IMG/VR virus record: IMGVR_UViG_3300043122_000022
Coordinates: 1 to 22,643 of that record
DNA from: a virus
DNA: 22,643 nt
Direction: 5' to 3' (one strand)
Positions within the stretch are counted from its first letter, which is position 1; each line of letters starts with the position of its first letter. A program made the translations under genes and the position numbers. The notes below the pieces were generated by a model. It saw only the letters and a list, made by a program, of their open reading frames with translations. It did no database searches and was not told where the DNA came from. Positions 3,173-21,133 of this stretch are shown in pieces.

Positions 3173-4219
3173 ATGGCAACTGCTCGTGATTTTCAAAACC
3201 CATACCAGCTTACAGACCTAACCAGTGAGATTCAACTGATCCCTAATACTTGGGGTCTGGTTACTCAGATGGGTCTATATTCTGATATTGGCGTATCTAC
3301 CAATACCGTAACTCTCGATAAGGTTAACAACACCCTGACCCTGCTGGGCGATTCCCGCCGTGGTACTCGTCACAACACCGAAGGTGCTAATGAGTCTGTT
3401 GAGACCTATGCGTTCAGCATTCCTCACTTCCAGATCCATGACCGCATTGAGCCAAAAGATCTACAGGGTCGCCGTCGTCCCGGTACTGACAACGAAGCTG
3501 ATACTCTGGCTATGGCCCGTATGCGTAAGCTGGAACGTATGCAGAAGCAAATCGGTATCACCAAAGAATACCTCGCCGTACAAGGCATCAAGGGTAATCT
3601 GGTAACTCCAAATGGTAACACTGTAGCTAACTACTACACCTCTTTTAGCGTATCTCAAAAATCTGTGGATTTTGTTCTGGGTACAGCTACTACAAAGGTT
3701 GGTGATAAGATCGAAGAAGTGATTGCACACATTCAGGACAACATCCTGTCTGGTGATATCGTAAATGATATCGTTGTACTGTGCTCCCCAACCTTCTTCC
3801 AGAAACTGGTTACCCATGCTAAAGTAGAATCTGCTTACCAGTTCTACATGAACACTAATCAGGGCTCTGGCGTTCAGGTGCTGCGTGATCGTCTGGGTTC
3901 TGGTCTGTACCGCTCTTTCTCTCACCAAGGTCTAGTTTTCCTTGAATATAGGGGCGCTTTTACAAAACAGGACGGCACAGTTGAAGCTCTAATTGAAGCT
4001 GATACTGCTTACGCTGTACCAATGGATGTGAGTGCGATGTTTGAGGCTTACAACGGCCCAGCAGATCATCTGGATTTCGTGAATACACTAGGTGAAAGCA
4101 TGTATGCTTGGGAATACACTGACGGACGTGGATTTGGCTACGACATCTTTGCAGAGTTCAATACCCTGCACTTGAACCGGATGCCCCAAGCTGTTGTTAA
4201 GTGTGTAACAAGCAACTAA
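3173..4219 (+). CDS. Major capsid protein, lambda gpE-like
   Basis: This is the major head shell protein. The 348-residue length is normal for the gpE family (HK97 fold). Recognisable features are the N-terminal LTSEIQLIPNTWG segment, an RRGTRHN motif, the HFQIHDRIEPKDLQGRRRPG region around residues 85-105 corresponding to the E-loop/spine region, a long charged helix (AMARMRKLERMQKQIG), a P-domain-like region around residue 190, and the C-terminal half with a Y-VPMD-motif and MYAWEY. The start is fixed by AAGGAG upstream of 3173. Codons are biased toward CTG, GGT and CGT compared with neighbouring accessory genes, as expected for a highly expressed gene. Gene order gpD-gpE confirms the call. 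Confidence 0.9.
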   Translation: MATARDFQNPYQLTDLTSEIQLIPNTWGLVTQMGLYSDIGVSTNTVTLDKVNNTLTLLGDSRRGTRHNTEGANESVETYAFSIPHFQIHDRIEPKDLQGRRRPGTDNEADTLAMARMRKLERMQKQIGITKEYLAVQGIKGNLVTPNGNTVANYYTSFSVSQKSVDFVLGTATTKVGDKIEEVIAHIQDNILSGDIVNDIVVLCSPTFFQKLVTHAKVESAYQFYMNTNQGSGVQVLRDRLGSGLYRSFSHQGLVFLEYRGAFTKQDGTVEALIEADTAYAVPMDVSAMFEAYNGPADHLDFVNTLGESMYAWEYTDGRGFGYDIFAEFNTLHLNRMPQAVVKCVTSN

Positions 4220-4231
4220 GCATTCTTGTCC

Positions 4232-4262
4232 AAAGCCTGTTAGGAAGTTCTTGACAGGCTTT
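4232..4262 (+). terminator. Hairpin behind the capsid gene, possible terminator/processing site
   Basis: AAAGCCTGT (4232-4240) and ACAGGCTTT (4254-4262) form a perfect nine-base inverted repeat around a 13-base loop, 12 bases after the capsid stop codon. Only three T end the stem, so termination would be partial at best. It may mainly protect the 3' end of the capsid message or lower transcription of the following endonuclease gene. Confidence 0.45.
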
Positions 4263-4278
4263 CCGCAAGTGTGTTTAA

Positions 4279-4304
4279 ATAGCCTTTTTATTTAAGGAGG
4301 CTGT
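4279..4304 (+). promoter_or_regulatory. RNA hairpin burying the ribosome site of the first endonuclease gene
   Basis: Bases 4279-4289 can pair with 4294-4304 in eleven consecutive pairs (three of them G-U) around the loop ATTT. The stem contains all of the AAGGAGG ribosome site (4294-4300) and ends at the start codon. The predicted effect is low translation of the endonuclease from long read-through transcripts. The pairing is seen in the sequence; the regulation is inferred by analogy with T4 homing endonuclease genes, whose ribosome sites are hidden in hairpins. Confidence 0.5.
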
Positions 4305-4895
4305 ATGAGAAAAGTATACGGTGTTGGTACAAATGACGCTAATTATAAAGTTACCCAGTACGCAGATGTAGACGGGAAATACACACAAGTCTGGAGGTGT
4401 CCGTATTATAGTGTGTGGAAGCATATGTTATATCGTTGTTACCATCCAGCATACCATAAAAGACAACCAACTTATATTACGTGCACTGTTTGCCCAGACT
4501 GGTTGATTTTCTCGAACTTTAAGAAGTGGATGCAGGAGCAAGACTGGGAAGGTAAACAGTTAGATAAAGACATACTGGTGGATGGTAACTTAGTTTATGG
4601 CCCAGAGTTTTGCGTTTTCGTTGAACAATCTATTAACAAGTTCTTACATGACGTTAAAGGGAGACTTGGGTCTTTAAAATTGGGCGCTCATTTAGATGCC
4701 CGCAAACATAAGTATGTAGCGGCTTGTAGCAACCCCTTTGAGGGTAAGCGTGAGGTGTTGGGTAGATTCGACACTCAACATGAAGCTCACTTAGCTTGGA
4801 AGTCTCGAAAACACGAGCTTGCTTGTATGCTTGCTGATTCTGACTTAGTTACAGATGAGCGTGTAGCACAAGCACTTCGCACAAGGTACTTGTAA
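4305..4895 (+). CDS. Free-standing homing-endonuclease-like protein with AP2-like domain
   Basis: This 196-residue protein belongs to the HNH/AP2-type phage endonuclease-like families. It has the N-terminal pattern W-hM-RCY (YSVWKHMLYRCYHP, residues 36-49), C-DW-FSNFKKW, then a QLDKDIL...VYGPEFCVFV block around residues 85-105 that corresponds to the LD-D...Y-P-NC-W region of such proteins. Residues about 123-170 resemble an AP2 DNA-binding domain (GAHLDARKHKYVAACSN, then LGRFDT-EAHLAWKSRK). A classic HNH triad is not obvious, so nuclease activity is uncertain. The gene sits alone between the capsid and connector genes, looks AT-richer and richer in TTA/AGA codons than the capsid gene, and is bracketed by hairpins. 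This suggests acquisition by homing. It is paralogous to the gene at 7849. Confidence 0.65.
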   Translation: MRKVYGVGTNDANYKVTQYADVDGKYTQVWRCPYYSVWKHMLYRCYHPAYHKRQPTYITCTVCPDWLIFSNFKKWMQEQDWEGKQLDKDILVDGNLVYGPEFCVFVEQSINKFLHDVKGRLGSLKLGAHLDARKHKYVAACSNPFEGKREVLGRFDTQHEAHLAWKSRKHELACMLADSDLVTDERVAQALRTRYL

Positions 4896-5901: not shown

Positions 5902-6326
5902 ATGGGTGGGATAATCTTGAGGAATGGGTAGAAGAAGCTGCTGAGACTCTTGTTAAGAAGGCTAAGACTGAAGCTGGCGACGAATTCTTACAGGAAGTAA
6001 CATCTCCGACAAACAATTGGAAAGACACCAAGCATTACAACTCCAACGGTAATACACCTGTGCTTGAAGGTAACCTAATGGCAAATACTGAGGTTGGTGT
6101 TAAGACTGCCCCAGATGGTGAGAATCCTTACGAAGATGAGGATGGGAAACAGACCTATCTAAGAGGTATTGCCAAAGTCAGGGCCGCAAATGCTTGGGAC
6201 AAAATATACTTCGTGAACGCTACTGAATACAACATACAGGCAGAGTTTGAAGGCTGGGGAAAATCTGGCCCATACAGATATTGGCAAACATCTTACAACA
6301 ACATGCTGGAGGCTATAAATAAATGA
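5898..6326 (+). CDS. Putative tail-completion / neck protein (HK97 gp10-like position)
   Basis: The 142-residue product begins with an amphipathic helix (NLEEWVEEAAETLVKKAKTEAGDEFLQEV), a common start for HK97 gp10-like or gpZ-like neck proteins. A TPVLEGNLMANTEVGV segment resembling the 'G.L..s' motif and an aromatic C-terminus with FEGWGKSGPYRYW follow. These proteins join the tail to the head. ATG overlaps the previous stop (ATGA) and the stop overlaps the next ATG (ATGA), so three genes in a row are coupled. The assignment rests mainly on position and weak pattern. Confidence 0.5.
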   Translation: MNGWDNLEEWVEEAAETLVKKAKTEAGDEFLQEVTSPTNNWKDTKHYNSNGNTPVLEGNLMANTEVGVKTAPDGENPYEDEDGKQTYLRGIAKVRAANAWDKIYFVNATEYNIQAEFEGWGKSGPYRYWQTSYNNMLEAINK

Positions 6327-6745
6327 ATCTACAGCCTTCTGAAATCCGTTCACACATTATTCAACACATATCTGCAAACTATACAGAGACTCCTGTTGAA
6401 TATCCGCCAAACCCTTTTAAAGAAAACAAAATTACCGAATGGGTGAGTGTCCATATTGACATGGGTGAAGGCTATACAGTGATGAAGGGGCAAGGCACTA
6501 CAACAAGACATCTTGGCCTAATTCATTTTGCTGTAAATGTTAAAAGGATTCAATCTGATCCAAGATCACTTGGTACAAGACGTGTCTATGAAATTGCAGA
6601 TGCTGTGCTTGCTGCAATGGAACGTAAGCGACTAAACGGATCTGCTGTTGTAACTAGAGCAGGACGTGTTGACACATCCGAACTAACAGATAAAACAGGC
6701 GAGATTTCTTTTGCCTTGGTTACAATTCCATTCTTTGTAACGTAA
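6323..6745 (+). CDS. Tail terminator protein (gpU / DUF4128-like)
   Basis: Tail terminators cap the tube to stop polymerisation and provide the head-binding surface. This 140-residue protein shows the expected alpha/beta layout: an N-terminal helix (SEIRSHIIQHISANY), an ENKITEWVSVHIDMGEG strand region, a TRHLGLIHFAVNVKR strand, a GTRRVYEIADAVLAAMERKR helix and a final SFALVTIPFFVT strand. It sits between the completion gene and the tube gene, the standard siphophage order. Four-base overlap with the preceding gene; 93 non-coding bases follow. Confidence 0.65.
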   Translation: MNLQPSEIRSHIIQHISANYTETPVEYPPNPFKENKITEWVSVHIDMGEGYTVMKGQGTTTRHLGLIHFAVNVKRIQSDPRSLGTRRVYEIADAVLAAMERKRLNGSAVVTRAGRVDTSELTDKTGEISFALVTIPFFVT

Positions 6746-6748
6746 AGC

Positions 6749-6774
6749 ATCACTTGTCCATTTGGACAGATGAT
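6749..6774 (+). terminator. Hairpin between tail terminator and tail tube genes
   Basis: Bases 6749-6759 pair with 6764-6774 around the loop ATTT in ten of eleven positions (one G-U, one mismatch), three bases after the stop at 6745. No T-run follows, so it may be an RNA-stability or pausing element rather than a strong terminator. Confidence 0.35.
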
Positions 6775-6793
6775 CCTCCCTGTAGGTAACAGG

Positions 6794-6809
6794 AAACAAT
6801 ATATTGTTT
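6794..6809. promoter_or_regulatory. Perfect 16-base palindrome upstream of the tail tube gene
   Basis: AAACAATATATTGTTT reads the same on both strands and lies 30 bases before the tube start codon. It could be a binding site for a dimeric regulator, part of a promoter region, or an RNA stem in the leader of the highly expressed tube gene. I cannot decide between these. Confidence 0.3.
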
Positions 6810-6838
6810 AAACTTTAAATCTTCTAGGAGAACACTAC

Positions 6839-7786
6839 ATGAGTTCATCTAACCTTGTTTCGGTAAAGTACGTACCGGAAGTTACATACGATACAGTTCC
6901 AGCCAACTCCCCTGATTGGAAATATACACGTTTCACTGGTGAGTCACTGTCTGCCACTGCTGATACAACCACCTCTAGTGAAATCCGCCGTGATCGTTCT
7001 ATCAGTGATATGCCTCTGGTGTCTATCACCACTGGTGGATCTCTTGATATTGAATTCTCTGCTGATACTTTCGATGACTTTATTGAAGCAGCACTAGCCT
7101 CTACTTGGCAAGCCGCTACTCCAGCGATAGGTAGCCAACAGCTCAAGCTAGGTACTGCCGAGTCTTCTTTCTCCGTAGAGAAGCACTTTGAGGACATTAA
7201 CAAGTTCGTCCTCTACTCTGGTATGCGTGTCGGAACCTTCAACCTATCTATGGCTTATGGTTCTATCCTGACAGGCTCTATCGGCTTCGCTGGTGCCTCC
7301 GCATCTACTCCTGCTACCTCTGCTGTAGGTACAGGTTCTGTAGCCTCTGCTACCACTACAGAGGTTCTGAACAGTACTTCTGACTTCGGTACTATTGAGA
7401 TTGGTGGTGTTGCTACTACTATCTGCCTGTCCTCTATGGACATCAGCATTGATAACTCTCTACGTGCAATTGGTTGTATCGGTAGTGCTACTGCTAAAGA
7501 TCAGAAGCTAGGTACTGCTAACATCACTGGTACTATTGAGATTTATCTGGATGCGTCTTCTTTCGCATATTACGAAGCAGCTCTGAACAATACATCTACT
7601 TCCCTGAAGTACACTGTAACTGATGGCACAGATACTTACGAGTTCTTCCTGCCAAAGATTAAACTGTCTTCTGACTCCCCACAGGCATCAAGTCTCGACA
7701 CTGACACAATGGTATCGCTGTCCTACACAGCTCTGTATGACGAAACTGAACAATCTTCTATTGTCATTACAAAAACCACCGCTTAA
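6839..7786 (+). CDS. Major tail tube protein
   Basis: This protein of 315 residues polymerises as hexameric rings around the tape measure to form the tail tube. The N-terminus (SNLVSVKYVPEVTYDTVPANSPDWKYTRFTGESL) is the usual tube opening with a Pro-Asn-Ser-rich loop. It continues with SSEIRRDRSISDMPLVSITTGGSLDIEFSADTFDDFIEAALAS (residues about 45-90), a hallmark of siphophage tube proteins. An Ala/Ser/Thr/Gly-rich stretch lies around residues 145-180, and the end is beta-rich (MVSLSYTALYDETEQSSIVI). CTAGGAG precedes the ATG. Codons are strongly biased, as in the capsid gene. With only this tube gene and no sheath gene, the tail should be non-contractile. Confidence 0.88.
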   Translation: MSSSNLVSVKYVPEVTYDTVPANSPDWKYTRFTGESLSATADTTTSSEIRRDRSISDMPLVSITTGGSLDIEFSADTFDDFIEAALASTWQAATPAIGSQQLKLGTAESSFSVEKHFEDINKFVLYSGMRVGTFNLSMAYGSILTGSIGFAGASASTPATSAVGTGSVASATTTEVLNSTSDFGTIEIGGVATTICLSSMDISIDNSLRAIGCIGSATAKDQKLGTANITGTIEIYLDASSFAYYEAALNNTSTSLKYTVTDGTDTYEFFLPKIKLSSDSPQASSLDTDTMVSLSYTALYDETEQSSIVITKTTA

Positions 7787-7797
7787 GACTTGACAGG

Positions 7798-7850
7798 TAT
7801 AACCTCCTTGTGAGATAGTACAGTTTGACTATTAAGCGAGGAGGTTGTAT
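7798..7850 (+). promoter_or_regulatory. Long RNA hairpin burying the start site of the second endonuclease gene
   Basis: Bases 7798-7811 plus 7797 pair continuously with 7836-7850 (15 pairs including four G-U). This covers AGGAGG (7839-7844) and reaches into the ATG at 7849. An inner stem ATAGT (7815-7819) / ACTAT (7828-7832) caps the structure. Transcripts coming from the tail tube gene would therefore have this start site closed. A transcript beginning inside the hairpin would leave it open. Confidence 0.6.
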
Positions 7851-8595
7851 GGCAAAGTTTGAAGTAGGAGGCGTTTACCCTACACGCACTTACGGTGACA
7901 TAGAGGTCTTAGATAAACGCACAAGGCAATACTTAATCAGGTTTATTAACACTGGGTTTAAAAGATGGGTTAAAGATTCATCTATGTACAATGGTAATTT
8001 AAGAGATCCTTACCATCCTACTGTAGCGGGAATTGGGTATATTGGCGACGGGCAGTATTCTGCACAAGATCGTCAAATCGATAAGCCTTGCTTTGATAGG
8101 TGGTATCACATGATAAATCGTTGTTATAACCCAGAAGAACCTTCATACAAATTCTATGGTGACGTTGGGGTTACCGTGTGTGATGAGTGGCACTGCTTCC
8201 AGAACTTCGCTGAGTGGTATAATAAAAACAGTGTAGATGGTTACGACCTAGATAAAGACTTGTTGTCTAAAGATAGTCGTGTATATGGCCCAAACACATG
8301 TTGCTTTATACCGAGAGAGATCAACAGACTTATTGTATCCGGTAGAAAACGAAAATCTAACAAGCATCTACCGATAGGTGTAATTGTTGGATCAAACGGA
8401 TACAAAGCTAAAGTTAAAAACCACTTTACAGGCAAGGAAGAGTATTATGGCCCTTTCGAGTCATACGAAGAGCCTGCTGAGATTTACAAGAGACGGAAGC
8501 TGGAATTAGTAAGAGAGACCATTGAGTCTTATTACTCTAATGGGCTTCTTTCGGATCTTGCTTACGAAGCACTCCTTCGGTGGGAACCTTGTTAA
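7849..8595 (+). CDS. Free-standing homing-endonuclease-like protein with AP2-like domain
   Basis: This 248-residue paralogue of the gene at 4305 has an extra N-terminal module (MAKFEVGGVYPTRTYGDIEVLDKRTRQ...), a small beta domain seen at the front of other phage HNH/AP2 proteins. The endonuclease-like part shows DRWYHMINRCYNP, YGDVGVTVCDEWHCFQNFAEW, then YDLDKDLL and VYGPNTCCFIP. An AP2-like segment (LPIGVIVGSNGYKAKVKN ... YYGPFESYEEPAEIYKRRK) follows near residues 175-225. I chose the ATG at 7849, not the upstream TTG at 7825, because of the perfectly placed AGGAGG and the family-like N-terminus. The gene is inserted directly behind the tube gene and looks AT-richer than its neighbours. Cutting activity is not proven by visible motifs. 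Confidence 0.65.
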   Translation: MAKFEVGGVYPTRTYGDIEVLDKRTRQYLIRFINTGFKRWVKDSSMYNGNLRDPYHPTVAGIGYIGDGQYSAQDRQIDKPCFDRWYHMINRCYNPEEPSYKFYGDVGVTVCDEWHCFQNFAEWYNKNSVDGYDLDKDLLSKDSRVYGPNTCCFIPREINRLIVSGRKRKSNKHLPIGVIVGSNGYKAKVKNHFTGKEEYYGPFESYEEPAEIYKRRKLELVRETIESYYSNGLLSDLAYEALLRWEPC

Positions 8596-8598
8596 ATT

Positions 8599-8664
8599 AT
8601 AACGGTCAATTTTGACCAAGATTGACTGGCTGGACTAGTTTGCCCGTTATGGTCTGGTCAGTCA
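8599..8664 (+). other. Highly structured intergenic leader before the tail chaperone gene
   Basis: The 106-base gap holds several inverted repeats: ATAACGG (8599-8605) with CCGTTAT (8644-8650), GGTCAA/TTGACC (8604-8617), and TGACTG (8623-8628) with CAGTCA (8659-8664). They cannot all form at once, so alternative folds are possible. A short direct repeat (ACGGGTAA, twice, about 8671-8688) and the GAGGT ribosome site of the next gene follow. No T-run is present. Confidence 0.35.
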
Positions 8665-8701
8665 TTTTAAAACGGGTAAACGGGTAATGAGGTAATACAA
8701 C

Positions 8702-9094
8702 ATGGCATTTACAATCGGTACAGTTGATAAAGCAAAGCAGCAAGACGGTGTTTGGGAAGAGTTTGAAGGTAGTGAGTTTCTCATTGCATATGCTCAGAAC
8801 CCAACCTTCCTGAAAGAGAAGGAACGTCTAGAACGTCCATACAAGCGTCAGATTGAACGCAACAAGATGAATGGTGATGAGCAGAAGCGTATTCTGTGTA
8901 AAGCACTTGCTCATGGTGTGTTGCTGGATTGGCGTGGTGTTACGGACGGCAAGGTTGAGATTGCTTATGACACTGAGATTGCTGCACAAGAATTGCAGGA
9001 CAATCCAGAATTCCTAGAGTTTGTAGTTAATGTCTCTGCTGACGTTGCCAACTACAAGCGCGAAGAGGTAGAACGCAAGGCCAAAAAAAGCTAA
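8702..9094 (+). CDS. Tail assembly chaperone, upstream frame (gpG-like)
   Basis: This 130-residue acidic/basic helical protein lies between the tube and tape measure genes, where nearly all long-tailed phages encode tail assembly chaperones in two overlapping frames (lambda gpG and gpGT). The N-terminus (AFTIGTVDKAKQQDGVWEEF-GSEFLIAYAQNPTFLKEKERLERP) and the middle (LAHGVLLDWRGVTDGKVEIAYDTEIAAQELQDNPEFLEFVVNVS) are typical of this group. The protein coats the tape measure during tube assembly and is not in the virion. The gene ends GCC AAA AAA AGC TAA. The seven-A run is the probable slip site into the next frame. Confidence 0.8.
   Translation: MAFTIGTVDKAKQQDGVWEEFEGSEFLIAYAQNPTFLKEKERLERPYKRQIERNKMNGDEQKRILCKALAHGVLLDWRGVTDGKVEIAYDTEIAAQELQDNPEFLEFVVNVSADVANYKREEVERKAKKS
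9083..9089 (+). promoter_or_regulatory. Probable programmed ribosomal frameshift site (A7), -2 or +1
   Basis: The upstream chaperone reads GCC AAA AAA AGC TAA. The downstream frame is open from 9072 (after a TAG at 9069) and runs through 9431 without interruption. Slipping -2 (or +1) at the A-run puts the ribosome into AAA GCT AAA GAC GCT TTG ATG. A -1 shift would reach TGA at 9103 and is not productive. A -2 shift in tail chaperones is known for phage Mu. Confidence 0.6.
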
Positions 9095-9104
9095 AGACGC
9101 TTTG

Positions 9105-9431
9105 ATGTGGCATCTTGATTGGTCTGAAAAAGAAGATGTCCTTTGGGGCATGTACGAAAAGACTGGTGAGATGCCACCTGCCCTTGTTAATCGTCCTGAT
9201 ATTGATGGTTGGACAAGTTGGTATTTAGATGCGTTCTTCCTCCTATCCAATTCAAGACAAACAGGTATGAGTGTCGGCAAGATACCATTGTCTGAGATGA
9301 CAAACTACGCAATGGTGTTTGATACGTTGGGTGAAGATGTTAAAGACTTTTGCTTGATTTTATCTAGGCTAGACTCAGCCTACTTAGAATGGTTGGATAA
9401 GAAGAAACCTAAGAAGGGGGCTGCTAAATGA
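9105..9431 (+). CDS. Tail assembly chaperone, downstream (T) part of the frameshift product
   Basis: This frame encodes the C-terminal 'T' half of the chaperone fusion, which in lambda binds the tube protein while the G half binds the tape measure. The residues fit the group: HLDWSEKEDVLWGMYEKTGEMPPAL, then DIDGWTSWYLDAFFLLSNSRQTGM, GKIPLSEM-NYAMVFDTLGEDVKDFC and a Lys-rich end. The ATG at 9105 has no credible ribosome site in front of it (only AAAG), and the frame is open back to 9072 across the A-run. It is therefore probably made mainly as a fusion by frameshifting. Coordinates start at the first ATG by convention. The tape measure gene follows after 57 bases. Confidence 0.75.
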   Translation: MWHLDWSEKEDVLWGMYEKTGEMPPALVNRPDIDGWTSWYLDAFFLLSNSRQTGMSVGKIPLSEMTNYAMVFDTLGEDVKDFCLILSRLDSAYLEWLDKKKPKKGAAK

Positions 9432-9488
9432 CATACGTTGTTGGCTGTCCCCTTTTTCTTTGCCCTAAATTCACGATAGGAATATAAC

Positions 9489-12400
9489 ATGGCAGATGAG
9501 AAAAGATTACAATTAGTTATAGACCCGTCTAGAGCCAAGAGCGGGGCAAAGGTTGCAAAGGATGCTGTTCTATCTGTAGAGGCTGCTGCGGATAAAGCAA
9601 CAAAGGCTTTAGCTAAACTAGAACGCGTTATCTTGTCAGGAAGCTCTCCTCTAGACAAACTGAACAAAGCTATTGGACACGTTGTTAATGTGAACCAAAA
9701 GATGCTGAAGTCTATAAATGACCTATCAGCAAAACTAGATGGCGTGAACACATCTGTCCGTAATGGCGCACAAGGACTAACCAACTGGGAGAAGTCTTTA
9801 GAACGTGCCAAGGACAAGACAGCCATGCTCAACTCTGAGCTAGGTAGGCAGCTTGTCGCAGAGAAACAATTACATGCAGAATTAACTAAGCAGATTAAGG
9901 TTGGTTCAGATCGTATTAACCAACTATCTGCTCAAGAGATGGCCCAAAAGAAACTAGCCGACTCTGTAGCCTTCTGGACTCAACGTACTAAGGATCTAAA
10001 CTCTGAAGAATATAAATCCCTTGTACAGATGCGGGAGAAAGCACGTCAGCTAGAGGCTTATGAGAAGTCTATGGTGGATGGATTATCTACTACGCAAAAG
10101 GCTGCTAAGGCTGAGAATGAACTACGCAAGGCTATTGAGCGTGGTAAGATTGAGCTAGACCAGTATGAGAGTGGATTGGCTCAAAAGAATATCGAGATGC
10201 AGGAGAGCATTGCTATCCAGCGTAGGCTAGCTCAGTCTGAAGCTAGATTGAAAGCTACAATGGATGGTACATATGACACTATCATCAAGAATGAAGCTGC
10301 TATAAGGAAATATAAGCGAGAGCTGCTTGGTCTAGAAGATGCGAATAACCGGCTCAACAGGTCAAACAGAGATTTAAGCCAAGGTTTTACTGCTCTAGGT
10401 GGTGCTCTTGGTACAATTACAGGAGCATACGCCGTAACTGAGGTGGTTCGCCTAGCTGATGCTTATAAAGCAGTTGGAAACAGAGTTGCTGTGGTGACGG
10501 GCACTACTGAAGGCTTATCAGAGAGTATTGCTGCGTTGTTTAAAGTGTCTGTTAAATCACGTACTGAGTTGGATGCCACAGTTGATGTGTATACCAAAAT
10601 GACTCGCGCAAACGAGCAACTGGGATATTCACAACAAGAAGTCCTCCGTATAACAGAGACTGTATCAAAAGCAGTGGCGATGTCGGGTGCATCTGTGCAA
10701 GGTGCACAAGGTGCGTTGCTACAATTTGCACAGGCAATCAGTGGTAACTTCCAAGCATCTGCACAAGAACTTAACAGCATCATTGAACAGGCACCTGCTC
10801 TTGGTGCTGCAATGGCTGACGCACTCAACACAGTTAATCCTGAACTGAACGCAACCATTGGTAATCTAAAGGCTCTTGCTAAAGAGGGTAAGATAACTTC
10901 AGCAGATCTCCTTCAAGGTTTCCTCAATATCTCAGATGAGATTGATGGAGTATTTAGTGCCTCAACGGAGTTGGTTGCAGAACGCTGGCGGAATGTAGTA
11001 GATGCTATTACAATTTACATCGGGGAGACAGACAAAGCTCTTGGTATAACTAACAGAATCTCCGCAGTGTTAAAAGACTTTTCACTGAATATAAAACAGT
11101 ACGCCGATGAAATTGATGCCGTACTACTAGGGATTGGCGCAGCGCTTGGTGTTGTTACAATTGCACTTGGTGCATTCATTGTGAGTATTGCAGCGATCCC
11201 GTTGTTAATAGCCGGTGTTGTCGGAGGCGCTGTCGGTAGTATATACTATTTCAGAGATGAAATTTCAAACACACTCAAGGAGATTGAATTAGCATTTTAT
11301 GAAACACTGCTGCAAGATATACCTGCTGTGTTCTCTGATGCTGGTAGTGCATTGATTGAAGGGTTTGCTAGTTATTTAGAGTATGGTGCACAACCAATAG
11401 AATCACTGCTAGACATTGTTTTTAAAGCCGTTGACAAGATAGCAGATGCGTTTGAAGGAAGCATCTTACAGAGTGCCCTCACTACATTCGGTATGAGATT
11501 CCAGTTAGTAGGTAAACAAATCCAATTATTCTTTGCAGAAGTATGGTCTAATATCCTATCTGGATTGGAGTCCATGATCAATTCCGCTGTATGGATGCTA
11601 AACAAATTCATACAAGAAACCATCTACAAACTAAACCAGATTCGTGACTTCATTGGTAAAGATGCTTTAGTTGTAGATGCAATCACTCCTGTAATCTTCT
11701 CATCTGATGCAAAGAAAAATGTAGAAGACTTGCGTGGGGAGATTGAACGCCTCAGCGGGGATATAAATACACAAGCTGATGTTACGCAGAGGTTAATTGA
11801 TGAGGAGAAGGAGGACTTACAGCTTAAAAAGGATATAGCAGAGTGGGCGTCTTTTGCTGGTGACGCCACTATAACATTTTCCAACTCTAACAATATTCTA
11901 TCTGACTCATTAGGTGGCTCTAATAAAGAACTAGAAAAACTAAAGGATGCCTTTATTGAGCTAGAGGACGAAGCACTCTCCCCAGTAGAAAAGCAGCAAA
12001 AAGAACTAGCCAAGATTTGGAACACACTTGTTAAAGGTGGTAAACTTCTAGGTAGATCCACGGACGAGATTAACAAGATATTCGTCAAACACGCAATGGA
12101 AATATCTGGTGCAAATGATCGCCTAGAAGAGTTGCGTGACACCTATAAAGAAATCACTTACCAAATGAATCCAGCCCTCGAAATCCAAGAAAAGATGATT
12201 GAGGCGGAACGTGCATTTAACCAAGCTGTTGCTGTTGGTAGTGAAAATATAGCTGATAAAGAACAATGGCTAGACCGCTACCGTAGAAGTATTGACGGGA
12301 CAGATGACCGTCTACAAGCACTCCAAGAGACCATAGCCGACACATTCATGGATGGATTTGAGGCTGCAATGGAAGGTGGCGAAGAGTTTAAGGATTGGTT

Positions 12401-16091: not shown

Positions 16092-18779
16092 ATGGCTTAT
16101 ACACCAATAAATAATTTACCACCAGCTCCACAAAGGAACGACTCACCAGAGGATTTTGTTGCAAAAGCTGATGCACATGTTGCTGCGTTGTCTACTTGGA
16201 CTACTCAGGTGAATAATGCTGGAGGTTATGTAGATACTGTTGTTTCTGATATGAATGCCATCAAGACAGACACAATCTCAGCAAGAGACCAGGCTGAAGG
16301 TTTTGCTGCGGCATCTGAACAGAGTGCTGAAGAGTCACAACAATACAGCCAGATTTCCTTAGCAGCAGCTAATTTCAAAGGTGAATGGCAAGACTTGTCT
16401 GGCCCACTGTCCATTCCAGCCAGCGTGTATTGGAACGGTAAGTATTGGGTGTTGCTGAATAATGTAGCCGAAATATCTAGCGAAACACCATCTGATACAG
16501 CAACTAATTGGGCTGAACTTGCTGCTATTCAAGTTGTTCGCACACCAGTCATTATATCTCCTCAGAGCGGGTCTGTGGGAGTGGTTCCTACGCCAACACT
16601 TGAGGCAAGTGCTTATGGTAACATCTATGGGGATGTACGTAACTACCGCCTGTTCCAAGTGGACGATGGAGACTTCTCTACACCAATATATGAATTCCAA
16701 GGTGATGTAGACAGCCACACTGTAGCATCAACCCTCCCTTTAAACACACAGCTAAAATGGCGTTGTAAAGATGTTGCTGTTGGAGGTGCTGAAAGTAACT
16801 GGTCTGGTGTAAGTGTGTTTAGCACAGGCGATGTCACTGTAGGTACACCAACACTTTCCGTTGAAGGATCTCCTACAGATGTACCTGAATCACCATTACT
16901 GGAAACATCTGCATTCTCTGTTATAGGCGGGTCAGATACGCATCTAAACACCGATTGGCAGATACTCAACGATCAGTTAGTTGTTGTGTGGGAATCCCTT
17001 GCCGACAGTGCTAACAAGCTGTCCGTTACAGTGGATGCTGGTGTTTTGCAAGAATCCACCACCTACACATTCCGAGCCAGACATCGTGGCACAACATATG
17101 GAGTAGGTGCTTGGGTAAGTGTTGTCGCCACTACAAAGGCTATGTTCTTCGATGACAACTCTGACGTAGATGGCTTGACATTCGCTGCAATGGACACTGC
17201 CGGTAACTTTGACTCCACCACCAATACAGGCTTCTTTGGTGAAATTCCTGCTACAGATTTGATTGACGATTACGATTATCGTGGCACATGGTCTGCGTCT
17301 ATTGCATACACTACTGGTCAGAGTGTTGTTTACAACGGTGTCAAATATGTAGCACTGACATCTACAACTGGGAATCAGCCAGATATTTCACCAACACAAT
17401 GGGACGTGGATACACGGGAGAATCTCCCAACAGGACGTTGGTTGTTTGAACACATGGGCTTTGGTCAAGGCGTGTTACAGTTTGCTGGGAATACAGCATC
17501 AGATGCGGGTTGGCTTAAATTCTATAGTCACGGTAAGGTGTTGTATGTAGCTAAGAAACCTTTTGCTCACTCTATTTCTTGGGATGCGATTGCCTGTCGA
17601 GATGGTGTGTTCGGTGATAGGACAGTTCGCATAGGCACTAAGTTATATAAAGTGAGACTGTTGACGGGTGCTGCATCTGATCCGATTGATCTAACCAACA
17701 TTGCGGCTACAGATAGCTGTACTCAGAATTATGGCGGTGGGTCTGAATACAATGAACTCATCTACCGTATTCATCAGACTGTTGTGACATGTGGCTCTAA
17801 CACATACGATGGTGGCCCACAGGTTGGTGCGAATTGGGCAAGCTATACGGATGCAGATCTTGTCATAGCTGCTGGCGATGGTCGTTATAAATGGACACAG
17901 GAGACAGCTTCTAACAACACCTCCGATCGTGTCGGTCGTGGCGCTGCTCGTCTTTCTTACTTGTATTCGCTCACGTCCTCGGGTGGGAATACCGGCCTCG
18001 GCTGGCTGCCTGTCTTAGAACTGATCTCTGATGGCGATGAGCCATATAATAGCGCCGTGTTGGGCGTAGGCCAAACCCAGCTTACATACGATTTCCATAC
18101 CGATACCGGCTATTTCGGCACTGTATCCTCAGCCGAATTCATATCAGGGAGTGCTTTAGCCTCAAGTATTGGCCTAACATCTGGTACAGCAATCAATGAC
18201 ACAACAGATTGGCTTAAGTTTTATTGGCATGGACAGATCCACTATATCCCGATGAAACCTCTTCGTCACAGTGTTAGTTGGGATGCCATCTATGACAGAG
18301 GTGCTGTATATGGTGTATCTTCGATGGGATTGTTTGGCAAAGGAACCGTAGCTCCGAGTGTTGTCCAGAATCGTGAAGTGACAATCGGGACAGATACATT
18401 CCGAGTGAAGCTCTTGAAAGGTGCTGAGAACGGAGATGTTGACGGAAGTACAAGTTTCCCTGCTGCCGACGAATCTGGTAGAAACTCCGAATATAACGAC
18501 CTCATTTATCGTGTTCATCAGGATGTTCCATCAAGCGCATCTGGACTAACTTTTGATGGCGGCGGTCAGATCGGGGATAATTGGGCAAGCTATACTGATA
18601 CAGATCTTGTTATAGCTGCTGGTGATGGTCGTTATAAATTGGCTATTGAAAGACGTTCTGATTCCACCTCCCGTCGTGTCCTTCGTGGCGCTACTCGTCT
18701 TTCTTACTTGGATTCGACTACGTCCTCGGGTGTGCATACCGCCCGCGGCTGGCTGCCTTCGCTTGTCTTAAAGCCGTAA
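16092..18779 (+). CDS. Modular tail fibre, DGR target with two variable domains
   Basis: This 895-residue adsorption protein is the target of the adjacent retroelement. Residues 1-93: phage fibre anchor (MAYTPINNLPPAPQRNDSPE, then an Ala/Gln/Ser coiled coil). Residues 95-144: FKGEW...NWAEL sugar-binding-like module. Residues about 150-245 and 252-350: two fibronectin-III/Ig-like repeats. Residues about 360-645: first receptor domain with a CBM5/12-like insert (YRGTWSASIAYTTGQSVVY, about 396-440) and the core WLKFYSHGKVLYVAKKP...SWDAI, ending in VR1 (610-640). Residues about 670-895: second copy of the receptor domain (WLKFYWHGQIHYIPMKP...SWDAI), ending in VR2 (859-889) six residues before the C-terminus. 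The R-V-RG-xRLS...GWLP frame of each VR fits the C-type-lectin-like fold of DGR targets. The ribosome site GGGAG is ten bases upstream. Confidence 0.88.
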   Translation: MAYTPINNLPPAPQRNDSPEDFVAKADAHVAALSTWTTQVNNAGGYVDTVVSDMNAIKTDTISARDQAEGFAAASEQSAEESQQYSQISLAAANFKGEWQDLSGPLSIPASVYWNGKYWVLLNNVAEISSETPSDTATNWAELAAIQVVRTPVIISPQSGSVGVVPTPTLEASAYGNIYGDVRNYRLFQVDDGDFSTPIYEFQGDVDSHTVASTLPLNTQLKWRCKDVAVGGAESNWSGVSVFSTGDVTVGTPTLSVEGSPTDVPESPLLETSAFSVIGGSDTHLNTDWQILNDQLVVVWESLADSANKLSVTVDAGVLQESTTYTFRARHRGTTYGVGAWVSVVATTKAMFFDDNSDVDGLTFAAMDTAGNFDSTTNTGFFGEIPATDLIDDYDYRGTWSASIAYTTGQSVVYNGVKYVALTSTTGNQPDISPTQWDVDTRENLPTGRWLFEHMGFGQGVLQFAGNTASDAGWLKFYSHGKVLYVAKKPFAHSISWDAIACRDGVFGDRTVRIGTKLYKVRLLTGAASDPIDLTNIAATDSCTQNYGGGSEYNELIYRIHQTVVTCGSNTYDGGPQVGANWASYTDADLVIAAGDGRYKWTQETASNNTSDRVGRGAARLSYLYSLTSSGGNTGLGWLPVLELISDGDEPYNSAVLGVGQTQLTYDFHTDTGYFGTVSSAEFISGSALASSIGLTSGTAINDTTDWLKFYWHGQIHYIPMKPLRHSVSWDAIYDRGAVYGVSSMGLFGKGTVAPSVVQNREVTIGTDTFRVKLLKGAENGDVDGSTSFPAADESGRNSEYNDLIYRVHQDVPSSASGLTFDGGGQIGDNWASYTDTDLVIAAGDGRYKLAIERRSDSTSRRVLRGATRLSYLDSTTSSGVHTARGWLPSLVLKP
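17832..17891 (+). repeat. Conserved segment before VR1, direct repeat with 18579-18638
   Basis: This 60-base stretch matches 18579-18638 at 56 positions and lies at exactly the same distance (86 bases) from its VR. Both encode NWASYTD-DLVIAAGDGRYK; three of the four differences are silent. It marks the duplication of the receptor domain and may supply upstream homology. Confidence 0.8.
17918..18010 (+). repeat. DGR variable repeat 1 (internal)
   Basis: This 93-base segment aligns without gaps to the template repeat 19264-19356. Sixteen positions differ; 15 are TR adenines and one is T to G (GTG to GGG). Changed codons are mostly AAT/AAC or GAT/GAC in TR and read D, G, A, A, Y, Y, L, G, N (unchanged), G, L in the fibre. 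The segment ends with the invariant GGCTGGCTGCC block, the likely initiation site for homing. It sits inside the protein (residues 610-640), not at its C-terminus. Confidence 0.92.
18579..18638 (+). repeat. Conserved segment before VR2, direct repeat with 17832-17891
   Basis: Second copy of the 60-base segment described at 17832; 56 of 60 bases are identical and it has the same 86-base offset to its variable repeat. Confidence 0.8.
18665..18757 (+). repeat. DGR variable repeat 2 (C-terminal)
   Basis: This 93-base segment aligns without gaps to TR. Eighteen positions differ: 16 at TR adenines, plus one G to A (GAT to ACT) and one C to T (AAC to ACT). The codons at the eleven template positions read R, L, A, T, Y, D, T, G, H, A, R. 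It ends in the same GGCTGGCTGCC block as VR1 and TR and is followed by only six more residues (SLVLKP) and the stop. Confidence 0.93.
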
Positions 18780-18783
18780 GGCT
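18772..18783 (+). other. Small GTAA-loop hairpin just behind VR2
   Basis: AGCC-GTAA-GGCT forms a four-base stem with a GNRA-type tetraloop 14 bases after VR2; the fibre stop codon TAA lies in the loop. In the Bordetella phage DGR a longer hairpin a few bases behind VR is needed for efficient homing. The match here is short, so this is tentative. Confidence 0.3.
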
Positions 18784-18808
18784 GTCTCTTAACACTAATA
18801 TCTAATGT

Positions 18809-18848
18809 GTGCGCGTTCAATGGCGGGGCTTGTCCCCGTCTAGCGCAC
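18809..18848 (+). other. Two-tiered GC-rich hairpin between fibre and avd genes
   Basis: Outer stem GTGCGC (18809-18814) / GCGCAC (18843-18848) encloses an inner stem CGGGG (18824-18828) / CCCCG (18834-18838) with loop CTTGT, extendable by GG/TC. It lies about 50 bases behind VR2 in the only gap between fibre and avd and has no T-run. It could be the DGR homing hairpin, an RNA processing site, or an attenuator for avd-RT. Confidence 0.5.
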
Positions 18849-18868
18849 TATTAACAAGGATATTTAAC

Positions 18869-19240
18869 ATGGTTGCAAGTGGGCTGCTTGTATTCTCCAA
18901 AGCAGAGTCGCTGTTCTACAAGATATACCCGTCTTTAATTAACTACCCTCGTGGTGAAAAATACTCTGTAGTTGCAGCGATTAAGGAGAATTTCATAGGA
19001 TTCTTAACAAAAATAAACCAAGCAAATGCTGTCAAGTCTAAACGTATCGTTTACTTACAAGAAGCTGATGCTTGTTTACAAACTTTAAAAATGCTATTCA
19101 GATTGTCACTTAACAGGAAATTCATAAAACAAGCATTTTTCGAAGATATTTCAGAATCTCTCACAGAGATAAACAAACTACTGGTTGGTTATTTTAAAGC
19201 GTCTTCTAGTAAAGATTACAAATCCAACTTCAGCAAATAA
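18869..19240 (+). CDS. avd: DGR accessory variability determinant (Avd-like)
   Basis: This 123-residue helical protein matches the Avd family, barrel-shaped pentamers of four-helix bundles that bind the reverse transcriptase and template RNA and are required for mutagenic homing. Visible signatures: an N-terminal helix ending in NYPRGEKYS (compare YPKSERF in relatives), an amphipathic helix (VAAIKENFIGFLTKINQAN), the YLQEADACLQTLKMLFRLS helix around residues 62-80, and a C-terminal ISESLTEINKLLVGYFKA helix. It is basic, as expected for nucleic acid binding. I chose ATG 18869 over the in-frame GTG at 18809 because AAGGA lies just upstream and the extra 20 residues are not family-like. It sits between target and TR, the classic order. 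Confidence 0.88.
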   Translation: MVASGLLVFSKAESLFYKIYPSLINYPRGEKYSVVAAIKENFIGFLTKINQANAVKSKRIVYLQEADACLQTLKMLFRLSLNRKFIKQAFFEDISESLTEINKLLVGYFKASSSKDYKSNFSK

Positions 19241-19521
19241 CTAGGTTTAGGATTAACAACTATCACCTCCAATCGTGTCAATCGTGGCAATGATCGTCTT
19301 TCTAACTTGAATTCGAACACGTCCTCGAATGTGAATACCGACAACGGCTGGCTGCCCTACTGATTTTGATTTAATGATAGGCACTTGGTTACGACTAGGT
19401 GTCCAAGATCAAGTATTTTGATAAGGGGTTGTTAATCCTGTGCGTTATGCACGAATACATAAACAGCAGGTGCACTCACCCATAGAGGACATTGTGCCTG
19501 TGCAATTCATTAAGGGATTTT
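19241..19521 (+). ncRNA. DGR template RNA with structured 3' spacer
   Basis: The 281-base gap between avd and RT holds TR and a 165-base spacer. In the Bordetella phage system TR RNA together with its downstream spacer binds RT-Avd and primes cDNA synthesis. The spacer here is rich in stems: GG-CACTTGG (19380-19388) with CTAGGTG-T-CC (19395-19404) around loop TTACGA; ATCAA/TTGAT (19408-19422); GGTG/CACC near 19469; and an ATTGTGC/GTGCAAT-type stem near 19491-19506. No separate promoter is evident, so the RNA may come from transcripts reading through from the fibre. Exact ends are unknown. Confidence 0.6.
19264..19356 (+). repeat. DGR template repeat (TR)
   Basis: This is the master copy from which adenine-mutagenised cDNA is made. 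It has 23 adenines, 20 of them in nine AAT/AAC and two GAT/GAC codons (in the frame of the fibre). Those are exactly the codons that vary in VR1 and VR2. AAY codons can become 15 different amino acids by changes at the two A without ever giving a stop. The three remaining A (in ACC, ACG, ACC) are unchanged in both VRs. The left boundary is taken at CACCTCC, where similarity to both VRs begins. The right boundary is GGCTGGCTGCC, after which TR and VRs diverge. Confidence 0.93.
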
Positions 19522-20520
19522 ATGTTTGACGGGATTGTTAGTTGGGATAATTTGCTAGATGCTTACAACAAGACACGTAAGGCGAAAGGTAAGCACAAGG
19601 TTGCTGCAATAAGATTTGAACAAAACGCTATACACAATCTTAAAATACTACAACAGTCGTTGATAGATGGTACTTACAAGTGTTCTGGTTACAACACATT
19701 CATGGTGTATGAACCAAAACCTCGTGTGATATATGCACCACACTACGTTGACAAGATTGTTCAACATGCAATCAACAATGTCATACGTGACCACTTAGAG
19801 CCTAAGTTTATACACGACAGCTATGCTTGTATTCGTGGAAAAGGTACTCACAGAGCAATACTGGCTATCCAGAAACATGCGAGAGTGTGTAAGCGTAACT
19901 ATGGCGACAAGTGTTATTTTGCCAAGACTGACATATCTAAATTCTTTTACACAATAGACAGAGGTGTTCTAAAGAGAATTGTTGCTAAGAAGATCCCTTG
20001 TGTCAGAACACAGGAGTTGTTAAACATTGTCATAGATAGTAGCCCTAGTGATGGACTACCACTTGGAAACCTGACAAGTCAGATATTAGCAAACCTCTAT
20101 ATGAACGAGCTTGACCAATACATCAAACGACATCTTAAGGTACGGCATTATGTAAGATATGCCGATGATTTGTTTATGGTGTGTAAAGATAAGTCTGAAG
20201 CTAAACGTATGTTACTACTTGTTAGGAAAGCAGCAAAAGACATCCTGCACTTAGACACAAGTGATAAGAAATCCTTTGTAACACCTGTTGCTGGAGGTAT
20301 TGTAGGACTTGGTTGCAAGATATTCACGACACACATATCGCTACTCTACAAACACAAACGTGGAATTATCAGATGCTTACAATCAGTTAAATCTATAAAG
20401 TCTTGGCTGTCATTCACGTCAGTAATGAACCGATACAATTTCATCAAGAGGATATTACCAGATGATTTACTTCCAAAACAACGAAGCGCAATTCTACACA
20501 ACAAAAGCTATATTCACTGA
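19522..20520 (+). CDS. DGR reverse transcriptase
   Basis: This 332-residue RT copies TR RNA into adenine-mutagenised cDNA. Motifs in order: PRVIYAPHYVDKIVQHAINNVI (residues 67-88, finger motif; the PR-I-P-D-VQ pattern of this RT class), a SYACIRGKGTHRAI block (100-113), KTDISKFF with D137, GLPLGNLTSQILANLYMNELD (178-198), and RYADDLF with catalytic D215 and D216. LPLGNLTSQ is the DGR-type form of motif 4; group II intron RTs have a different sequence there. No maturase or endonuclease domain is present. I chose ATG 19522 (AAGGGA just upstream), not TTG 19492. The last 59 bases overlap the next gene in another frame. It is close to the Bordetella phage RT in size. Confidence 0.95.
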   Translation: MFDGIVSWDNLLDAYNKTRKAKGKHKVAAIRFEQNAIHNLKILQQSLIDGTYKCSGYNTFMVYEPKPRVIYAPHYVDKIVQHAINNVIRDHLEPKFIHDSYACIRGKGTHRAILAIQKHARVCKRNYGDKCYFAKTDISKFFYTIDRGVLKRIVAKKIPCVRTQELLNIVIDSSPSDGLPLGNLTSQILANLYMNELDQYIKRHLKVRHYVRYADDLFMVCKDKSEAKRMLLLVRKAAKDILHLDTSDKKSFVTPVAGGIVGLGCKIFTTHISLLYKHKRGIIRCLQSVKSIKSWLSFTSVMNRYNFIKRILPDDLLPKQRSAILHNKSYIH

Positions 20521-21133
20521 TACAGGCCATCCTGTTGAGCAATATACAAATGATCGTCAATACTATGAAAGCCTAGTAGGACAATGGGGCCATCTGTCCA
20601 ACCTATCCTTCGAGGATGTCGTCCCAACACAATCTCAGCAAGCTCGTCTAGTAGAACTAAATAACCTAGAAGTTCCTAACAAAGATCTCTGGCAAGGCAC
20701 CTGTGCTACATTCGTTGAGCATGGTATTATCCTCCCAGATGATTCTAGCCCACTATCTTCACTAGAACCTTCCTACAGAGAATCTACACTCAATTTCTTC
20801 CGTGAAGAACGTAGGCAGATTCTCAAGCAAGAACGTGATGAACGTATCTCTCTTCCAATCAATAATGTTCAAGTGGGACGTATTGAGGACAGAGAGAACG
20901 TGACAGGTACTATCTCGAATTGGGATATTCTTGGTCTGACAACATCAATCGGATGGGTGATGGCTGATAACACGCTACAAGATCTCTCTAAAGCTGATCT
21001 GGAGGCTGTTGTAATTGGATATACACAACGTAAGGCTCAGACATTCTCTGCTTACGAACAGGCTGTGATTGCTTTACAGCAAGCATCTACGATTGAGGAG
21101 ATCATGGGCGTAATATTACCGGAGGCTGTATGA
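20462..21133 (+). CDS. DUF4376-like tail fibre assembly/associated protein
   Basis: This 223-residue protein has an N-terminal MIYFQNNEAQFYTTKAIF segment, a common opening for fibre-associated proteins, and a C-terminal half that reads like DUF4376: REERRQILKQERDERIS, NVQVGRIEDRENVTG-IS, IGWVMADNTLQDLSKADLEAVV, RKAQTFSAYEQAVIALQQAS. DUF4376 proteins usually follow a tail fibre gene and are thought to help its folding or attachment. The start lies 59 bases inside the RT gene with AGAGGA upstream, so the DGR avd-TR-RT block appears inserted between fibre and partner gene. The last four bases overlap the next gene (ATGA). Confidence 0.75.
   Translation: MIYFQNNEAQFYTTKAIFTDTGHPVEQYTNDRQYYESLVGQWGHLSNLSFEDVVPTQSQQARLVELNNLEVPNKDLWQGTCATFVEHGIILPDDSSPLSSLEPSYRESTLNFFREERRQILKQERDERISLPINNVQVGRIEDRENVTGTISNWDILGLTTSIGWVMADNTLQDLSKADLEAVVIGYTQRKAQTFSAYEQAVIALQQASTIEEIMGVILPEAV

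Follow-up and report, generated by a model that had tools for sequence, protein, structure and literature searches.

Does the window analyzed here, the whole 22,643-base stretch of the IMG/VR virus record IMGVR_UViG_3300043122_000022, encode a diversity-generating retroelement (DGR) that still rewrites a phage protein, or only the remains of one, and what becomes of such an element in related genomes? The window contains genes for a portal and a major head protein (both recognized by PHROG) and a tape measure protein (Pfam), and is therefore phage DNA, probably a fragment of one phage genome. An original prediction made from the sequence had placed a complete DGR at positions 16092-20520, and all its parts are indeed found there: a target gene with two variable repeats (VR1 and VR2), avd, the template repeat (TR), a spacer and the gene for a reverse transcriptase (RT) (Table 1). 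We consider it very likely that this is a phage DGR of the BPP-1 type, intact and active in the recent past, which randomizes two tandem VR domains of a tail-fiber-like protein.

The repeats carry the first line of evidence. The TR and both VRs align without gaps over 93 bases, and 31 of the 34 differences from the TR fall at TR adenines (15 of 16 in VR1 and 16 of 18 in VR2), as originally predicted. Counted by site, VR1 is changed at 15 of the 23 TR adenines compared with 1 of the 70 other positions (Fisher p = 9e-11), and VR2 at 16 of 23 compared with 2 of 70 (p = 8e-11). The predicted near-complete match at the non-adenine positions thus holds, with a correction to the range of 67-69 of 70 given for it: the matches number 69 of 70 in VR1 and 68 of 70 in VR2. 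Twenty of the TR adenines lie in eleven codons, nine for Asn and two for Asp, which yields the predicted 4^20 (about 1.1e12) nucleotide variants per VR and, by arithmetic from the codons, 15^9 x 4^2 (about 6e11) protein variants. The 3 remaining TR adenines are in Thr codons and are changed in only 1 of 18 cells over the six VRs described below. A scan of the entire window for repeat pairs with adenine-biased mismatches detected none beyond TR-VR1 and TR-VR2. By analogy with BPP-1, the TR would be transcribed together with its flanks into a structured RNA bound by Avd and RT; the RT would then copy the TR to cDNA with errors at template adenines, and the cDNA would take the place of VR1 or VR2, so that eleven codons in each tandem domain would be randomized with the scaffold kept.

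Near relatives from IMG/VR searches allow this pattern to be followed between genomes. Three were recovered, G001 (38,047 bases), G002 (54,010 bases) and G003 (17,131 bases), the last of which stops inside the target gene, upstream of the VRs. G001 carries the same cassette, with a TR identical to that of the window at 93 of 93 positions and with VRs that are only 80% (VR1, 74/93) and 84% (VR2, 78/93) identical to those of the window; elsewhere, the two genomes are 88% identical in avd, 89% in the spacer and 95% in the RT gene. This combination of an invariant TR with divergent VRs is seen in one genome pair, the window and G001. In the same pair, dN/dS is 0.06 for RT and 0.05 for avd, compared with 8.0 for VR1 and 7.2 for VR2, the two VR values being rough. 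When the six VRs (two each from the window, G001 and G002) are compared with the window TR, 92 of 138 adenine cells are changed compared with 9 of 420 other cells (C, 5/162; G, 1/114; T, 3/144), and any two of the six differ at 10-18 of the 23 adenine sites and at 1-4 of the 70 others. The VR diversity in relatives, without which the original prediction was to fall, is therefore present: the VRs of G001 and G002 differ from those of the window at 13-18 of 23 adenines and 1-4 of 70 other sites. On a farther branch, loci L093 and L098 share 99% identity across 6,007 aligned columns and yet differ in the reading of the VR, the L098 VR departing from the L093 TR at 14 of the 26 adenines but at none of the 74 other positions. 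This pattern is what an active DGR leaves behind and, judged from sequence comparison, the window DGR is probably active.

The relatives also include genomes in which the avd-TR-RT cassette is broken or missing. A scan for the target domain yielded 35 loci, and a second scan two more; we examined 39 loci (L079-L114, L003, L031 and L073) along with the window, using as a landmark for the presence or absence of the cassette the downstream gene, which lies outside the DGR and, in the window, shares 59 bases with the RT end. Loci with an end too close to the target (L081, L083, L098, L101, L103, L107, L109, L111 and L114), jumbo-type or partial loci without the downstream gene (L100, L102, L112 and L113) and a copy (L088) were left out; L079 and L080 were entered as G001 and G002, and L084 was kept, though its domain minus the VR equals that of L082. 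Among the 26 loci counted, 16 encode avd and RT, with a TR-VR pair found in 14 of these (none in L104 and L105), and 10 have no working cassette, which is either absent or broken. When mapped on a tree of the domain with the VR excluded, the cassette state requires 7 changes (7-8 over bootstraps), at least 5 of them on well-supported branches, and its scatter is about that of shuffled labels (120 of 500 shuffles were as low).

The breakage can be read most closely in G002, which lost ~1,387 bp between a CAAGA in avd (window position 19058) and a CAAGA near the RT end (20445), and has kept only a 5' fragment of avd plus the final ~29 RT codons; RVT_1 found no match in this record. At sites where the window and G001 differ, the avd piece agrees with G001 in 41 of 41 cases, and past the junction G002 is window-like at 93 of 100, the first site and six others being G001-like, so that the break is a junction of two phage lineages. 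The switch from G001-like to window-like sequence, at 1855-1924 of this locus (L053), coincides with the cassette deletion, and farther upstream the target is a mosaic. Both VRs of G002 keep the adenine pattern, with 11 and 16 of the 23 adenines changed compared with 2 of 70 other positions in each. They also share, in VR1 (727-819) and VR2 (1474-1566) alike, a C to T change at TR position 85 that is absent from the TR of the window and G001 and may mark the lost TR of G002.

The other nine loci are of several kinds. L089, which is 100% identical to L088 over 6,845 bases, keeps the target, avd and a truncated TR, and has in place of the RT gene an HNH-endonuclease open reading frame (ORF) at 3860-4603, the C-terminus of which consists of the last 15 codons of the RT. 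In L095 and L096, the whole site is filled by an ORF of the HNH family PHROG 953; these ORFs are 64% identical to each other and 34-38% identical to two ORFs of the same endonuclease family elsewhere in the window (4305-4895 and 7825-8595), which share 33% identity between themselves. L085 encodes a 42-aa fragment that weakly matches the endonuclease-like ORFs (E=0.004). In L106, avd has a frameshift and stops, and the RT is in two frames with the middle gone. In L086, L090, L108 and L110, the cassette is absent without remnant and the downstream gene lies close behind the target, with the provisos that the L086 contig reaches only the start of that gene and that its identity to the query is as low as 43% in L108 and 29% in L110. 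An endonuclease-like ORF thus occupies the cassette site in 3 of the 10 cassette-less loci (L089, L095 and L096). We hypothesize that endonuclease genes cause the loss of the cassette; chance occupation of an empty site is possible as well because PHROG 953-type ORFs are common in these phages, with two in the window.

Whether these loci once had a DGR was addressed through the adenine footprint of their VRs, with p-values that are uncorrected and refer to whichever of 13 TRs, at whichever offset, fitted best by non-adenine mismatch. The VR of L095 differs from the TR of L091 at 14 of the 24 adenines compared with 3 of the 75 other positions, and therefore, the L095 target was once diversified by a DGR; given that the two loci are 96% identical downstream of the site and 76% upstream, this target might have been imported. 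The jumbo-type loci L100 and L102, employed as a negative control, gave values of 0.06-0.3 with their best TRs, and the flanks lacked a clear adenine excess. The test misses diverged cases, as indicated by the values of 0.02-0.15 and 0.43-0.67 for the RT-bearing loci L104 and L105, and because the nearest TR is diverged, variability of the binding site could explain part of the footprint in L085, L086, L090, L096, L106 and L110; L108 falls outside the test, the scanned stretch ending before its VR.

An alternative account of the cassette-less relatives holds that they reflect an ancestral state without the DGR, which would have been acquired on several occasions, or that already diversified targets were imported into phages without a DGR, with few true losses. 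The step in identity between L095 and L091 suggests recombination and fits this account, as do the four loci without any cassette remnant and the fact that, in the diverged loci, the adenine excess is measured only relative to the TR of a relative. The remnants speak against it: the avd part and RT end in G002, the avd, truncated TR and last RT codons in L089, and the frameshifted avd and RT pieces in L106 all prove loss or breakage. Overall, we regard this alternative as rather unlikely; loss or breakage is firmly established where remnants persist, that is, in G002, L089 and L106, and is the likelier reading for the remaining cassette-less loci. Going one step further, it is possible, and we suggest this tentatively, that avd-TR-RT is, in this phage family, a labile module located after a conserved gene for a binding protein. 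Illegitimate recombination between co-infecting phages, and free-standing homing endonuclease genes that occupy the site, would remove it time and again, leaving the binding protein frozen in one variant, and relatives may be the source from which the evolvable state is regained. If so, the endonuclease genes would amount to gene drives directed at a hypermutation system. In the literature searched, which consisted mostly of papers available without subscription (PMC8144416 and PMC8867640 among them), we found no report of such a pattern of DGR loss or of a DGR with a homing endonuclease; temporary inactivation has been suggested for some prophage DGRs (PMC11792537). Cassette-bearing and cassette-less close relatives amount to natural knock-outs, from which one can ask what halting the evolution of a binding protein costs or brings.

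The cassette of the window phage could itself look intact and yet be dead, the VRs being fossils of past activity. G002, where the VRs retain the adenine pattern after breakage of the cassette, speaks for this, as do the 10 of 26 related target loci without a working cassette. In the window, however, RT and avd are open and are under purifying selection in the comparison with G001 (dN/dS of 0.06 and 0.05, respectively), the RT has the catalytic YADD, and the TR of G001 is unchanged over all 93 bases even though its surroundings differ by 5-12%. A dead cassette in the window is, accordingly, an improbable explanation.

The identity of the RT and Avd is in line with the reading of the window element as a DGR. 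The RT matches Pfam RVT_1 and PHROG 1423 (E=4e-97) and contains the predicted YADD along with GLPLGNLTSQ. RTs of the DGR clade have SQ instead of SP in the motif preceding YxDD; a pattern for this motif matched 15 of the 35 DGR-like RT rows, all with SQ, and all 4 outgroup rows, all with SP (QG...SP). In a tree of 39 RTs, the window RT groups with 34 other DGR-like RTs including BPP-1 Brt, as the original prediction required, and a 100/100 branch separates this group from the four outgroup RTs, a small set with two group II RTs by annotation, an RT-domain protein and L050, an RT that lacks annotation. The best match in a PDB sequence search was 8ub7, titled "Reverse transcriptase" (E=1.6e-51, 179 bits), which we take to be BPP-1 bRT, followed at a distance by the next-best chain (E=2.2e-13, 54 bits). 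That this is an RT of another kind (group II intron, retron or defense RT), next to repeats diverged by ordinary selection, has virtually no probability left: NCBIfam lists group II, retron and Drt models for it, all far under their cut-offs, and returned no DGR RT match, and against this stand the GLPLGNLTSQ found where the outgroup has QG...SP, the tree split, the gap in bits between the PDB chains, and changes confined to TR adenines, which are not expected from ordinary selection. Avd, an accessory protein found in many but not all DGRs, is recognized by Pfam bAvd (E=1.9e-14, above the cut-off) and PHROG 3206 (Avd); it scored 60 bits with the NCBIfam Avd model, below the cut-off of 80, and had no match in the PDB sequence search.

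The two VR domains of the target align as a tandem pair. A model of a single VR domain, built from a 30-sequence alignment, has a pLDDT of 85.5 and a pTM of 0.87; a joint model of both domains, from three near-identical rows, reached only pLDDT 29 and was not used. A VIA-align comparison was run over 560 Foldseek candidates, and the 50 matches listed include PvdO (Z 7.6), 2y3c, which is the DGR variable protein of Treponema denticola (Z 7.4), and, at Z 6.3, Mtd (1yu2), with formylglycine-generating enzymes, by title, making up 20 of the 50. From this comparison, the VR domain is likely to have a C-type-lectin-like fold, the usual setting of a VR in DGRs. Homologs of the domain are detected by sequence in virion structural proteins of jumbo phages (PhiPA3 080-082 and Salicola SCTP-2 gp82), and by predicted structure in 32 viral models at E <= 0.001, with PhiPA3 as the best (2.6e-19). 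Farther upstream in the target, aa 399-437 comprise a CBM_5_12-like stretch (Pfam E=7e-5, under the Pfam cut-off), and the PDB sequence search with the target retrieved chitinase A1 at E=0.015 and nothing else. By analogy with BPP-1 and from the homology to virion proteins, the target might be a receptor-binding protein, the variation of which would alter host binding and could bring about host-range switching. As a separate observation, the jumbo-phage virion proteins (L072, PhiPA3; L071, Salicola phage SCTP-2) share the domain of the target despite the statement in a review that no FGS-type C-type lectin domain is reported in jumbo phages (PMC7824862).

Several points weigh against the reading of the window element as an intact, recently active DGR of the BPP-1 type. 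Activity is judged from a comparison between genomes; nine of the differences from the TR over the six VRs are at non-adenine positions; and the VR dN/dS values given above are rough ratios because each VR contains one synonymous difference. With regard to the fold, Foldseek found no PDB entry at E <= 0.001 for the VR-domain model, and none of the VIA-align matches listed reaches Z 8, so that such Z values may mean only a common arrangement. Finally, BPP-1-like phage DGRs have a hairpin after the VR, with an 8-bp stem in BPP-1 and the loop consensus GRNA (PMC3240598). Whereas the BPP-1 hairpin is strong (z -5.25 in our control), the inverted repeats in the window are weak (DNA-fold z of -1.41 for the one that follows VR2 and -0.79 for the one that follows VR1), and the loop GTAA after VR2 is at odds with the consensus as given there.

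The RNA of the TR provides a feature that goes beyond the original prediction, namely a helix of 12 bp, with covariation, by which this RNA is closed. In an unanchored search of the TR flanks in the window, the bases directly 5' of the TR pair with bases 71 nt 3' of it, and like-placed helices, 2-5 nt before and 61-74 nt after the TR, were found in 13 of 13 DGRs of the target family, of which 10 beat all 60 shuffles; shuffles reached the helix in 4/60 cases for L091 and 1/60 each for L082 and L093. With the downstream strand anchored on a conserved AAGRGR, 155 of 156 cells over the 13 DGRs are paired, and more than one pair type occurs at 11 of the 12 positions; when strands were swapped between DGRs, the mean fell to 7.9 of 12 paired. 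These 13 DGRs include close kin, the offset is the best of 13 per row, and the anchor is limited to 45-85 nt after the TR, a limit chosen after earlier helix results had been seen; without it, the anchor is misplaced in 4 of 13 rows and the mean is 10.4 of 12 pairs. In a wider set of 45 DGR loci, many of them close kin, 31 have the helix at p < 0.02 against mononucleotide shuffles and 14 fail, including BPP-1 (p 0.44), VP58.5 (0.12) and the family member L093 (0.08). The best TR-flank duplex of BPP-1, which contains one bulge and was run without a control, is similarly placed, with its strands 6 nt upstream and 56 nt downstream of the TR. Folded as a single sequence, the TR region of the window shows the helix, yet does no better than shuffles (z -0.65), and no Rfam family was matched in the window at gathering thresholds. 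The spacer is described in one report as folding and recruiting the RT-Avd complex, with a motif in the 3' end of avd that stops reverse transcription (PMC12875486). The helix adjoining the TR would be what the RT meets on finishing the TR, and might bound the cDNA. It offers a sequence handle to bound DGR RNAs that could serve for a covariance model, and a testable end site of the cDNA.

Among known systems, the BPP-1 DGR (mtd, bbp7/avd, TR, brt, bbp4) has the same order of parts, on one strand, as the window. The RTs are distant (37.6% identity over 82% of the query), the overlap between RT and the next gene is 20 nt in BPP-1 and 59 nt in the window, and BPP-1 has one target domain with one VR where the window has two. 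In our scans for TR-VR pairs, a pair was found in 38 of 48 sources and in 13 of 36 of a second set; two VRs occurred in the window and G001 only (G001 was entered twice, as L002 and L028), and G002 has a pair of VRs but no TR. A target ORF with two VRs is not new: 31 of 271 multi-VR DGRs have multiple VRs within one target ORF (PMC6642488), a single target gene with a third VR is known (PMC10907252), and the multi-VR DGRs include one ORF of three tandem FGE-sulfatase paralogs (PMC3521204). The window adds to these a tail-fiber-like phage gene with tandem domains, which is no difference in kind. Taken alone, the window element is one more well-supported phage DGR; to the original prediction the analysis adds the helix with covariation around the TR and a cassette that comes and goes, with frozen VRs staying behind.

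The target family, avd, TR, RT and helix are shared with the Halomonas qaidamensis plasmid NZ_CP080628.1 and with the phage loci L082, L087, L091-L094, L097, L099, L003 and L031, in which the downstream gene is of the same kind as in the window where the contig reaches; these differ from the window in having one VR each and RTs ~44-51% identical to that of the window. The plasmid, a 46-kb record (L073), has at 6277-9682 the order target-avd-TR-RT-downstream gene as in the window, with an adenine-biased VR (14 adenine and 0 non-adenine differences over 97 bases), and may be a phage-plasmid. The jumbo-phage virion proteins (PhiPA3 080-082, Salicola SCTP-2 gp82 and others) have a domain homologous to the window target; no DGR was annotated beside the domain in the two jumbo-phage loci inspected, the rest of those genomes not having been searched with profiles.

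Table 1. Features of the DGR and its immediate surroundings, in window coordinates
Feature	Position	Strand	Basis
DGR target gene, 895 aa, tail-fiber-like	16092..18779	+	ORF; PHROG virion structural and tail fiber families
VR1, internal, target aa 609-640	17918..18010	+	Adenine-biased differences from TR
5-bp inverted repeat after VR1	18031..18045	+	DNA fold
VR2, close to C-terminus, target aa 858-889	18665..18757	+	Adenine-biased differences from TR
Small inverted repeat, 4-bp stem, 4-base loop, 14 bases past VR2; weak candidate target hairpin	18772..18783	+	DNA fold
avd, 123 aa; upstream GTG at 18809 also open	18869..19240	+	Pfam bAvd, PHROG 3206
5' strand of TR-closing helix	19249..19260	+	12/12 pairs with 19428-19439
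TR, 93 bases, 23 adenines	19264..19356	+	Alignment to VRs; identical in G001
Spacer RNA, TR to RT, with 10-bp hairpin at 19380-19403 (predicted fold)	19357..19521	+	RNA fold
3' strand of TR-closing helix	19428..19439	+	Covariation over 13 DGRs
DGR reverse transcriptase, 332 aa, GLPLGNLTSQ and YADD	19522..20520	+	RVT_1, PHROG 1423, tree, PDB sequence search, motifs
Downstream gene, DUF4376, weak PHROG tail match	20462..21133	+	ORF, Pfam, PHROG

Between the end of the target and avd, positions 18758-18868 contain a strong inverted repeat (DNA fold z -3.67, with 0 of 200 shuffles as good), which is a candidate terminator or target-recognition element.

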